Assembly: GCF_005404945.1 (NCBI RefSeq)
Contig: NZ_BJDG01000012.1
Location: forward strand, 1-64,000
From: Lactiplantibacillus pingfangensis
GTDB taxonomy: Bacteria; Bacillota; Bacilli; Lactobacillales; Lactobacillaceae
DNA length: 64,000 nt
Direction of reading: 5' to 3'
Part shown: positions 16,015 to 48,595 of the stretch, one piece after another
Numbering within the stretch: the stretch's first letter is position 1
How the letters are laid out: each line of letters begins with the position of its first letter
The notes under the pieces: model-generated
Told to the model about the DNA's origin: nothing
What the model saw: the letters and a program-made list of their open reading frames with translations, nothing else
Databases searched by the model: none
Program-made: the position numbers and the translations under genes

Positions 16015-16055
16015 GAAAACCGAACGATTGAAAGTCCCAATCATCCGGTTCCCTA
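16015..16055 (+). repeat. 41-nt hairpin repeat, copy 1
   Basis: Stem AACCGAACGATTG against CAATCATCCGGTT, with an AAAGTCC loop. Two other copies of the same length lie at 31455-31495 and 39717-39757 (reverse orientation). The core GATTGAAAG is invariant while stem bases change in pairs between copies. Downstream sequence GGC-ATGCT-GGT is shared with copy 2. Confidence 0.8.
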
Positions 16056-31454: not shown

Positions 31455-31495
31455 GAAACCCGAATGATTGAAAGTGCCAACCATTCGGGTTTCTA
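31455..31495 (+). repeat. 41-nt hairpin repeat, copy 2
   Basis: Stem ACCCGAATGATTG against CAACCATTCGGGT. It lies in the 110-base gap between mvaK2 and fni, so it is transcribed (as complement) within the mevalonate operon. Confidence 0.8.
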
Positions 31496-39716: not shown

Positions 39717-39757
39717 TAGAACCCCGAATGATTGGGTCTTTCAATCGTTCGGGGTTC
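39717..39757 (-). repeat. 41-nt hairpin repeat, copy 3 (reverse orientation)
   Basis: On the minus strand the stem is ACCCCGAACGATTG against CAATCATTCGGGGT. It lies between aspB and dnaD and would also be a long hairpin on the plus strand. A terminator role between the two genes is possible though no clean T-run follows. Confidence 0.8.
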
Positions 39758-39791
39758 TAAACGCAGTTGGTGGTTAATATTGGAGGAAAAA

Positions 39792-40520
39792 ATGGATCAA
39801 TTAACACAAGCGCTGATTAATGGTGGTCAAACGACCATTGCGAATGTGCTATTGCAGCATTATCGCGAAATTGGCTTAACTAACGAAGAATTGCTAGTTT
39901 ATTTACAATTTAAACGATTGATGGACCAGGGGGAAACGTTCCCAGATGCCAATCAGGTGGCACAGAGTCTCGGTGAAACGAGTAACACAGTTTTTCAACA
40001 TTTACATGAAATGTTAGCCAAAAAGCTATTAACCATCGAATCAGTGACGGCGGCTGACCAAAAGATTCATGACCGCTATAATTTTGATGGCCTGTACGAA
40101 AAACTCACGCTGGCGTTAAAGAAGGGTGCTAGCGCTGAAACCACCACGACGACTGGCACCCAAGAAAATTCACGACAAAAAGTCTTTAAATCAATCGAAA
40201 CTGAATTTGGCCGAGCACTATCACCGATGGAAATGGAAAGTATTAGTAAATGGTTCGATGAGGATCATTATGATCCTGAAGTCATTTCCTTGGCATTACG
40301 CGAGGCCGTTTTACGGCAAGTTTATAATCTGACTTATATGGATCGAATTTTGTTGAATTGGCACAAGCGCAATTTGACAACCGCAGCGCAGGTTGAGGCG
40401 GATAAGCAGCGCGGTATTGAGAACCGGCTGAATTCAGCACCAAAACCACAACGCCAAACGGGAGCCAATGCGGGCCCCAAGATCCCATTATTTAAACTTG
40501 GCGAAGATCAGTCCAAATAA
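39792..40520 (+). CDS. dnaD: DnaD-family replication initiation protein
   Basis: 242 residues from the ATG at 39792 with GGAGG at 39782-39786. The N-terminal winged-helix part (about 1-100) and C-terminal DnaB_2 domain (about 125-210) with the YNLTYMDRILLNWHK motif are both present. DnaD helps load the DNA helicase during initiation at oriC and during PriA-dependent restart. nth, which follows dnaD in many Firmicutes, is missing and replaced by structured non-coding DNA. Confidence 0.93.
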   Translation: MDQLTQALINGGQTTIANVLLQHYREIGLTNEELLVYLQFKRLMDQGETFPDANQVAQSLGETSNTVFQHLHEMLAKKLLTIESVTAADQKIHDRYNFDGLYEKLTLALKKGASAETTTTTGTQENSRQKVFKSIETEFGRALSPMEMESISKWFDEDHYDPEVISLALREAVLRQVYNLTYMDRILLNWHKRNLTTAAQVEADKQRGIENRLNSAPKPQRQTGANAGPKIPLFKLGEDQSK

Positions 40521-40545
40521 GGAGATTGGCTAATTAACTAAAGAT

Positions 40546-40616
40546 GGAAAGATGAAATTCGCAAGTAATCCCCGTCGTGTCAATGATTAAGTCATGAAGA
40601 TTAGTTGCCATGACCG
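40546..40616 (+). repeat. AT-rich flank module of the 184-bp element (copy 1)
   Basis: Begins GGAAAGATGAAATTCGC, then a CGTCGTGTCAAT segment, and leads directly into the 184-bp structured element. A similar module lies at 48379-48443, and the first 11 bases recur at 48082-48092 beside the second element. Confidence 0.65.
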
Positions 40617-40800
40617 CTTCCAGTCGCCACTGATCACATGCGGCCGTGGGACCGGGGCAAGCCTGAGAAACGTCTTGGCCCTCGTCCGGAACCCTTGCAC
40701 AAATCGCAAGTGTCCCGGACCGTCCGTGGCGTAACGCCGGCAAGAAACATGCCGACCCAACGCCACGGTCACGGCCGATGGGATCAGCGGCGACTTCCAG
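40617..40800 (+). repeat. 184-bp multi-branched structured element, copy 1
   Basis: Bounded by direct repeats CTTCCAG at 40617-40623 and 40794-40800. Inside, GTCGCC-A-CTGATC and CGGCCG pair with their complements at the right end (about 18 pairs). The interior folds into hairpins at about 40649-40687, 40685-40718 (CTTGC/GCAAG, CCGG/CCGG) and 40724-40768 (perfect 9-bp stem CCGTGGCGT). Copy 2 (48110-48293) is the same length with no gaps and keeps the structure through paired base changes. It contains no plausible ORF. It could be a non-coding RNA or a mobile structured repeat. Confidence 0.82.
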
Positions 40801-40834
40801 CTAATTTAACTATTTTTAGGTTAGGTTTAGTGGA

Positions 40835-40999
40835 AGCAGGCAGAAATCGTTGTGCTGTGTCGGTAAGATTGGCCGGCGGGTCTTGGCCGCCTAATCTTAC
40901 AGGGCGATTCAAAGACGTGGGGTATCGGCTTTAAATCGAAGTTGCAGACCGCACTATGGCTGCGACTGTCCCACCATAGCACAGCGATTTCTGCCTGCT
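40835..40999. repeat. 165-bp long inverted repeat with nested hairpins
   Basis: Outer arms of 22 bases (AGCAGGCAGAAATCGTTGTG and on; the right arm differs by one base, which still gives a G-T pair). Inside are GTAAGATT/AATCTTAC, GATT-AAAG/CTTT-AATC, and GTTGCAG/CTGCGAC hairpins. The sequence differs from the 184-bp element 35 bases upstream but the architecture is alike. No ORF is supported. Confidence 0.8.
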
Positions 41000-41091
41000 G
41001 AAGCGGAATTACCACTAATTTGGAAATGTCTGTTGTCTATATGACAGTGCTTACAAGCCCTTTTGTTCTTTCAACCTTTAGTCATTAAACA

Positions 41092-41134
41092 AAAAGCACT
41101 CAAATCGCAAATAACTGCGATTTGAGCGCTTTTC
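41092..41134 (-). terminator. Terminator of the pbp1A gene
   Basis: AAAGCACTCAAATCGCA pairs with TGCGATTTGAGCGCTTT around a 6-base loop, with U-tracts on both sides. Confidence 0.85.
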
Positions 41135-45158: not shown

Positions 45159-45553
45159 AATGTAAATTCTGGGTAATCGCGGTCGGCTTAAGTCGGCTGA
45201 GGAAGGTCCATGCCCGCACAAGCTGCGATGCTTGTAGTGTTCGTGCTCGGTGAAAAAATAAGCTGGGGAACCGATTTTATCGGTTACGGCGGAAAAAACG
45301 ACTAAGGCGCAAGCTATGCCCGAGTATTCCTGAAAAGTGCCACAGTGACGATACTTAGTTGGAAACGACTAAGTTGGAACGCGGTAAACCCCTCGAGCGG
45401 GCAACCCAAACTACGGTAGGGGCGCTTCACATAAGTAAATGAACTAAATGTGGGGGGAGATCCTTGTGATCTCGAGATAGATGATTGCCGCCTAACTAAT
45501 AGACACCTGTGCTTTAGTTAGGTACAAAACATGGCCTACAGGAATTTACATTT
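45159..45553 (+). ncRNA. rnpB: RNase P RNA, Bacillus (B) type
   Basis: The P1 stem AATGTAAATTC pairs with GAATTTACATT at the 3' end. Conserved blocks include GAGGAAGGTCCATGCC (CR-I), the GGTAAACCCC segment, AACCCAAACTACGGTAGGGGC near the middle, and the 3' ATAGATGATTGCCGCC with ACAAAACATGGCCTACAG. The position between gpsB and the rlmL-like gene matches B. subtilis. It is the catalytic RNA that matures tRNA 5' ends. Confidence 0.96.
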
Positions 45554-47969: not shown

Positions 47970-48081
47970 TGCAATAATCTCACTTTATTATTTGATAACT
48001 TAACTTTGACAGAAAAAGTTATAAAAAACAACTGAGATGCTTATATGATTGCCAGTGATTGTCTGTTAGTCAAATGCGGTT

Positions 48082-48443
48082 GAAAGATGAAAAGAAGTCA
48101 ACGTTGTCGCTTCCAGGCATCACTGATTACATGCGGACGAGGGACCAGGTCAAGCCTGGGGAGCGGTCTTGCCCTTCGCCCGGAATGGTTGCAAAAACCG
48201 CAACTATCCCGGACCGTCCGTCCCGTAAGACCGGCTAAAAAACGCCGCTCAAACGGGAATTTCACGTCCGATGCAATCAGCGACGCCTTCCAGCCAGGCT
48301 AATGGTTATAAAGATAAAAAAGTTTAAAAATATTTGATCTTTAAAAATAATGGCGTCAGTTTATTAGAATCTAAAAATTGAAAGATGAAATTCGCGAATA
48401 ATTTCCATCGTGTCAATAACCAGCTCATGCAGATTAATTAGGA
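48082..48443 (+). repeat. Flank modules around the second 184-bp element
   Basis: GAAAGATGAAA occurs at 48082-48092, just 17 bases before the element, and a longer module GAAAGATGAAATTCGC...CATCGTGTCAAT lies at 48380-48418 after it. The latter matches the left flank of copy 1 (40546-40580) closely, so parts of the module bracket this copy. The rest of 48294-48595 is AT-rich and without a gene. Confidence 0.6.
48110..48293 (+). repeat. 184-bp multi-branched structured element, copy 2
   Basis: The same CTTCCAG direct repeats bound it (48110-48116, 48287-48293). It aligns with copy 1 (40617-40800) end to end without gaps. Where the outer stem of copy 1 has CTGATC/GATCAG and CGGCCG/CGGCCG, this copy has CTGATT/AATCAG and CGGACG/CGTCCG. 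Where copy 1 has GGCGT/ACGCC this copy has CCCGT/ACGGG, and CTTGC/GCAAG becomes GTTGC/GCAAC. The blocks TCCCGGACCGTCCGT and CAAGCCTG are identical. It lies in a divergent promoter region between the esterase and nucleotidyltransferase genes. Confidence 0.82.
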
Positions 48444-48595
48444 ACCGGTACTGATATGGTTCTGTTCACACTTATTTTTAAACTTGCAACCTGTAGTTAG
48501 GATTGTTTAGCTGGTCAAACCATGCCATAATTATTAGTAATCAGCGTAAATGAAATGCGGTCTAGTGTCAGCAATCAATTGAGGATGGTGAAAAG

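Follow-up and report, generated by a model that had tools for sequence, protein, structure and literature searches.

The locus and the question that it raises

Two stretches of 184 bp in a 64,000-nucleotide window of Lactiplantibacillus pingfangensis (contig NZ_BJDG01000012.1, positions 1 to 64,000; by "the window" we mean this whole stretch) differ at many positions, and their differences fall largely in pairs that keep the stems closed. This raises the question of what kind of molecule, or what kind of process, keeps these stems paired. A first-pass annotation of the sequence had placed the copies at 40617-40800 (copy 1) and 48110-48293 (copy 2), had listed compensated stem changes between them, and had noted that copy 1 is flanked by convergent genes and copy 2 by divergent ones; the coordinates, the changes and both contexts were confirmed on the sequence. 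The annotation had offered a structured RNA or a structured mobile repeat as the explanation. Covariation is commonly taken as proof of a functional RNA.

Anatomy of the element

The stretch of 184 bp proved not to be the unit that it had been taken for. It is an internal module (M1) of a larger element with terminal repeats on both sides, and a self-contained 184-bp element was ruled out, since similarity reaches the terminal repeats on either side. When 30 loci of the same genome were mapped along the window, a block of similarity extended from about 40540 to about 41090 around copy 1. Other copies have the order left end, M1, linker, M2 cloverleaf and right end. The whole unit in the window (element 1, 40540-41079, without strand) measures 540 bp and consists of two mutually inverted cloverleaf modules framed by IS4-type TIRs. 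It was delimited by similarity depth, the module map of sister copies and the target duplications of sister copies; its own target duplication is not clear (score 2).

The left terminal inverted repeat of element 1, AAAGATGGAAAGATGAAA (40540-40557, plus strand), is a degenerate form of AAAGGTTGAAAGATCAAAA, as judged from the left ends of sister copies and from the sequence. M1 follows at 40617-40800 on the plus strand, with 194.5 bits (E 2.2e-46) in model R1, whose training set contained both copy 1 and copy 2 (181.5 bits for the latter). A linker beginning with CTAATTTAAC and present in many sister copies (40801-40836, plus strand) leads to M2, a diverged M1 in reverse (40835-41003, minus strand), and the right terminal inverted repeat, AAGGTTGAAAGAACAAAA, is an exact pattern match at 41061-41078 on the minus strand. 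The M1 model recovers M2 at 70.5 bits (E 6.9e-16) from the minus strand, and element 1 is therefore an inverted pair of one module; this opposite-strand match, which recurs in other species, ruled out M1 and M2 as unrelated modules. We collected 67 distinct full-length M2 copies, and their alignment was built with one best strand per place. The 540-bp unit holds no transposase gene, its only open reading frame being a mechanical one of 98 aa at 40638-40934.

Copy 2 (48110-48293, plus strand) belongs to a second M1 subfamily, B, as indicated by its relatives in the same genome and its score with the M1 model. For element 2, the left terminal repeat (GGTTGAAAGATGAAAAG; 48078-48094, plus strand) was read by eye. 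A second left-end-like stretch, at 48371-48439 on the plus strand and with 80% identity to 40538-40606 in the repeat comparison, is either a remnant of another element or a piece of a composite. The description of the copies as gap-free with invariant blocks holds for the two window copies and breaks down across 60 copies. In that larger set gaps appear in M1; among the 15 positions of TCCCGGACCGTCCGT, 3 never vary and 5 others hardly do, and half of the 8 positions of CAAGCCTG are invariant. Folded as single-stranded DNA, copy 1 reaches -57.3 kcal/mol (z = -7.2) and copy 2 reaches -38.9 kcal/mol (z = -3.9), and in neither case was any of 200 dinucleotide shuffles as stable.

Copy number and distribution

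With copy 1 as the query, the window's own genome gave at least 42 M1 matches, 40 of them with E < 1e-47; this count is a lower bound, as scoring covered 40 of the 146 first-look candidates. From nine genomes, 163 distinct full-length M1 copies were collected. A first survey found M1 matches in 10 of 41 genomes, all of the window's genus. The covariance-model search of Lactobacillaceae that the first-pass annotation had proposed as a check widened this range to 86 of 397 genomes and 11 of 40 genera, using an M1 model built from 60 copies and stricter filters above 40 genomes. Scanned for the pattern, the GTDB genome collection gave at least 108 matching stretches, and the 80 matches listed all belong to Lactiplantibacillus, Levilactobacillus, Companilactobacillus, Secundilactobacillus or "uncultured Lactobacillus." No match to the element was found at E 1e-5 among plasmids (72,556 records) and phages (50,697 records).

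Terminal repeats and mobility

The ends of the element are imperfect inverted repeats, AAAGGTTGAAAGATCAAAA on the left and TTTTGTCCTTTCAACCTT on the right, with the consensus AAAGGTTGAAAG. With up to three mismatches allowed, the window's own genome contains 105 matches to the 18-base end, vs. 5 for the reversed control. Within 130 bp outside the module and at up to one mismatch, AAGGTTGAAAG accompanies 16 of 54 modules in Lactiplantibacillus, 16 of 125 in Companilactobacillus, 2 of 35 in Levilactobacillus and 0 of 23 in other genera (shuffle expectations 0.1, 0.2, 0.1 and 0.0, respectively). Terminal inverted repeats are thus present in Lactiplantibacillus and, elsewhere, in a minority of copies; the modules with no recognisable terminal repeat (38 of 54, 109 of 125, 33 of 35 and 23 of 23 in the same order) count against the view of the element as a MITE.

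Target duplications of 8-10 bp flank 23 of 89 candidate end pairs at loci of the window's own genome, and the swapped-flank control gave a mean of 1.2 and a maximum of 5 of 89. For one locus of Companilactobacillus, each of the 36 genomes searched gave a match. Of the 30 orthologous loci fetched, 27 are empty and 3 are filled (the query, G299 and a diverged copy in G416); the copy at this locus is an old one that lacks clear terminal repeats. The proposal of a mobile repeat was therefore borne out by the target duplications, the end motif outside the modules and the empty orthologous sites. Further copies, covariation and signs of mobility, whose absence had been named as speaking against the original proposal, were all found.

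An IS4-family insertion sequence as the probable partner

The genome of the window (G000) carries a 1.45-kb insertion sequence whose ends are identical in type to those of the element. Its IS4-family transposase (NCBIfam NF049925, 254 bits) is split in two frames and has Pfam DDE_5 and DDE_Tnp_1 matches. Related insertion sequences with the same ends are present in G019, G008, G020 and G017; the transposase frame is unbroken in the first three, and perfect 10-11-bp target duplications surround the full-length copies in G019 and G020. These insertion sequences carry the transposase and, at the six loci searched with the M1 model, have no module in or near them, whereas the element shows the reverse.

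Within the window's genus, the IS4-family transposase occurs in 7 of 21 genomes, in some as mere fragments, and in this search it was not found in the element-rich genomes G009, G013, G004 and G016. In Companilactobacillus, the transposase or its remains were detected in 8 of 36 genomes, both with and without the element and in some cases with the same ends; the idea that the presence of the transposase tracks that of the module in this genus found weak support and was set aside. The absence of the transposase from many element-rich genomes and of modules from the six IS loci counts against our preferred explanation. Overall, transposition of the element in trans, by an IS4-family enzyme of the NF049925 type, is strongly suggested.

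Two observations concern the neighborhood of these sequences. At L147, a gene that we take to encode an IS110-like transposase (134-1297) lies directly beside the IS4-family insertion sequence. In addition, three contigs (C5, C18 and C27, at L127, L128 and L129) start with a similar IS-like end (GATTACCAACAACAG..AGAGCC) situated about 120 bp or less from the left end of an element, and insertion sequences may favor spots near these left ends.

Inverted pairs and genomic setting

For the analysis of architecture, 79 of the 80 listed loci were used (one 174-base locus was left out), with 164 non-overlapping M1 hits; a sequence check ensured that no place entered the pair, gene-context and end-motif counts twice. 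Among 51 cases of neighboring hits less than 900 bp apart, 47 are inverted with the same ends outward and have spacers of 20 to 614 bp, 2 have the opposite inverted arrangement and 2 are in tandem. Solo hits account for 56 of the 164. We also considered and rejected a large autonomous version in which genes would lie between the modules, since the two widely spaced pairs (1934 and 2885 bp) hold ordinary host genes.

At these 79 loci, 112 of 116 elements are intergenic and 4 lie mostly within an open reading frame. The 87 elements flanked by genes on both sides are found in 29 convergent, 48 tandem and 10 divergent settings, compared to 74, 308 and 53, respectively, for 435 neighboring gene pairs at the same loci. 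In 56 Companilactobacillus modules, conservation ends about 4 bases beyond the outer edge (TGCCG) and extends about 15 bases inward (CCGGCTAG, then T-rich); a T-rich stretch follows some 9-18 bases beyond the inner edge, and the sequence immediately outside the module is rich in T as well.

In the outer flanks of L464-L483 and L254-L287, several modules lie just downstream of T-runs resembling intrinsic terminators, and a target preference for such runs is possible. The inner arms of M1 or M2 are absent at L070, L074, L076, L002 and L023, as from slippage across hairpins. At L086 and L043, elements stand beside the same gene in two species in opposite orientation, through either independent insertion or an inversion; the flank is shared on one side only, and we do not claim an inversion at a shared site. 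Similarly, L035 and L017 were rejected as a shared site, their alignment covering only the module and one side.

Covariation beyond the two copies

The covariation extends beyond the two original copies and is far above chance. In the 163 M1 copies, 944 of 9836 cells have both sides changed, and 558 cells are mispaired vs. 1492 if the columns were independent. In 60 representatives, 93.7% of the cells are paired (82.7 in shuffles), 41 pairs have changed on both sides (21.7) and the covariation score is 0.307 (shuffles 0.106; slid structures at most 0.089). The 57 distinct modules from other genera give 92.6% (68.5), changes on both sides in 56 of 61 pairs and a score of 0.581 (shuffles 0.161; slid structures at most 0.099), in an alignment that was fitted to the model and is thus biased towards the structure. 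The consensus energy from RNAalifold on the 163 copies was weak, and the pairs were therefore counted directly.

Under a tree-aware null (our own script, with significance at E<0.05), 29 column pairs were significant in the other genera, 27 of them within the 61-pair structure and 2 outside. The 60 copies of the Lactiplantibacillus set reach significance at only 4 of 61 pairs, which we count against our preferred explanation. Within a single Companilactobacillus genome, the outer stems of the copies are unrelated in sequence yet paired over about 20-25 bp. At sites common to two species (G344 and G299; G000 and G006), reading by eye indicated that the fold is retained and that the differences are paired.

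Strand symmetry of the pairing

In an RNA that functions from one strand, G-U pairs are expected to be tolerated and A-C pairs are not. The class B RNase P RNA at 45165-45543 of the window (332 bits) served as the control, in an alignment of 31 rows (30 loci and the window, with one genome present twice). In the RNase P of these bacteria, G-T and A-C combinations stand at 315:22, or 14:1. For the M1 stems the counts were 59:68 in the other genera, or 69:84 when the structure of the model itself was used, and 76:75 among the Lactiplantibacillus copies. Counted as changes on the tree, the ratio is 83:18 for RNase P, 44:56 for M1 in the other genera, 83:71 for M1 in Lactiplantibacillus (27 pairs) and 71:38 for M2.

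M2 has 172:34 on the plus strand, an RNA-like ratio that counts against the folded-DNA view. At its unpaired positions, C>T (0.130) exceeds G>A (0.058) and A>G (0.163) exceeds T>C (0.121); since these loop substitutions are skewed in the same direction, the G-T skew of M2 may be partly or wholly mutational. The corresponding values for M1 are 0.084 for C>T, 0.072 for G>A, 0.120 for A>G and 0.045 for T>C. The helices of M1 also differ from each other, with 107:34 in hairpin C and the reverse, 65:145, in P1, and this too is counted against the folded-DNA view. Taken together, the data indicate that the M1 fold is maintained strand-symmetrically. As G-T is no commoner than A-C in M1, a one-strand RNA fits less well than folded DNA or arms copied by template switching. 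On the measure of G-U above A-C on a functional strand, M1 does not behave as an RNA, and M2 alone leans that way; a reading of the paired change as a sign of selection on an RNA is unsupported, given that M1, unlike RNase P, lacks a G-T excess.

What keeps the stems paired

The explanation to which we give somewhat better than even chances is that of a MITE of Lactobacillaceae with IS4-type ends, moved by an IS4-family transposase and with modules constrained as folded DNA. The element shares its imperfect terminal repeats with an IS4-family insertion sequence, whose transposase would supply the movement in trans, and it is present in many copies with 8-10-bp target duplications. Its interior is made up of two inverted cloverleaf modules, each with a conserved core and stems that vary freely yet stay paired. 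The modules may form hairpins or cruciforms beside each end, where the transposase or a host protein could recognise the shape together with the core sequence, and only copies that keep the fold would continue to move or persist. Template switching between the arms at replication probably helps to maintain the pairing. IS4-type cut-and-paste is not known to require a folded interior, and this counts against the folded-DNA view. More tentatively, and at clearly less than even chances, the modules could represent a new kind of transposon part, namely mirror-image cloverleaf DNA folds beside DDE-type ends, read by shape and a short core and long kept across at least 11 genera via wobble-free paired change.

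The closest rival, which we consider unlikely, holds that the long palindrome arms are simply copied from each other by template switching and that the fold itself is idle. According to the available part of one account, template switching has been proposed both to create and to maintain perfect stems (PMC8794818). It is a strand-symmetric process and compatible with the symmetry of the M1 mispairs; P1 stems that are unrelated in sequence and near-perfectly paired within one genome also agree with it, as do direct pair-to-pair changes (98 and 349), though RNase P also shows 175. Copying of this kind would, however, erase fixed mispairs, and several are found beside covarying pairs. Of the 60 representatives, 59 have an A.A mispair and 49 an A.C; in other genera A.A is seen in 50 of 55 modules and each of two C.T mispairs in 54 of 57. 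Fixation is weaker in those genera for an A.C loop at 73/97 (23 of 53). Cross-genus conservation of the core GGGACCGG..AGCC..GTCT..CCTCG also speaks against it, as does the constant orientation of the hairpin A loop in the copies inspected. The fixed mispairs and the conserved core led us to favor, with moderate confidence, selection on folded DNA, assisted by template switching.

Two further explanations place the function at the RNA level. If the modules formed a two-sided transcript barrier, the first module met by transcription would always have the same orientation, would fold, and would end or stabilise the message, making insertion harmless or useful. The inverted pairing of the modules, the excess of convergent settings (29 of 87 elements vs. 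74 of 435 gene pairs) and the T-rich stretches in Companilactobacillus are in line with this idea, which we regard as improbable: an RNA-level role would favor G-T over A-C in M1, the T-rich stretch is not a run right at the stem, unlike that of a standard terminator, and the convergent enrichment may merely reflect avoidance of promoters. Quite improbable, in our estimate, is a structured RNA in the usual sense, with modules that are transcribed, act as a regulator, stabiliser or guide, and spread with the element. It is favored by the very strong covariation, by the conservation of the A-rich loops and the core, by the one-strand G-T excess of M2 and by the largely intergenic location; the parity of G-T and A-C in M1, set against the 14:1 of RNase P, and the lack of a fitting Rfam family speak against it.

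The family thus combines strong covariation with, in M1, the absence of the G-U excess seen in the RNase P of the same bacteria, and it serves as a warning that a repeat can be misnamed an RNA from covariation alone. Its many copies and empty sites offer a clean test of whether folded DNA, the copying of arms or RNA keeps the stems paired.

Comparison with known families and repeats

The statement that the element belongs to no known Rfam class was borne out, nothing reaching the gathering threshold for it. A search of 40500-41100 returned nothing at E <= 1, and 48050-48460 returned one chance-level match (13.9 bits vs. a gathering score of 86); in the whole window, RNase P alone reached its gathering score. 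The modules at 11 further loci gave no hit, and the single L17DE hit lies outside the modules in L154. In open-licence PubMed Central, covered mostly at title and abstract level and leaving most subscription papers outside, no description of the repeat was found. The mobile repeat of lactic acid bacteria with two mirror-image cloverleafs is apparently undescribed, and it adds a widespread mobile element to the genomes of food bacteria.

Integron attC sites are variable in sequence and have a conserved fold that is recognised as single-stranded DNA, and REPINs are inverted pairs. Both serve here as a working analogy only; the present modules are far larger and branched, and they have DDE-type ends.

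Among bacterial MITEs, the Correia/NEMIS, ERIC/RU-1 and RU-3 families are likewise small, non-autonomous and intergenic, with many copies and a stable predicted fold, and in the portion of the source available most of them have terminal inverted repeats and target duplications, as here (PMC2229807). They measure about 100-200 bp and form long stem-loops, whereas the present element has two inverted branched cloverleafs, cross-genus covariation and strand-symmetric M1 mispairs. The CIR repeats of Caulobacter and Brucella, in the same partial account, also consist of two inverted-repeat arms joined by a linker, with a fold kept across genera; their arms are simple and carry a GANTC motif in the loop, in contrast to the cloverleaf arms and, on complete units, the IS4-type ends of our element (PMC2229807). 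The bcr1-bcr18 repeats of Bacillus cereus are likewise interspersed Firmicutes repeats with mobile features, with up to 130 copies of bcr1; as far as the available part of their description goes, mobility is tied to a TTTAT motif, the first element is restricted to one species group, and no inverted cloverleaf pair is mentioned (PMC6542083).

The window also contains a 41-nt palindromic repeat in three copies (16015-16055, 31455-31495 and 39719-39759), the outer two having 80% and 76% identity to the middle copy; the copy at 39719-39759 overlaps a predicted gene start.
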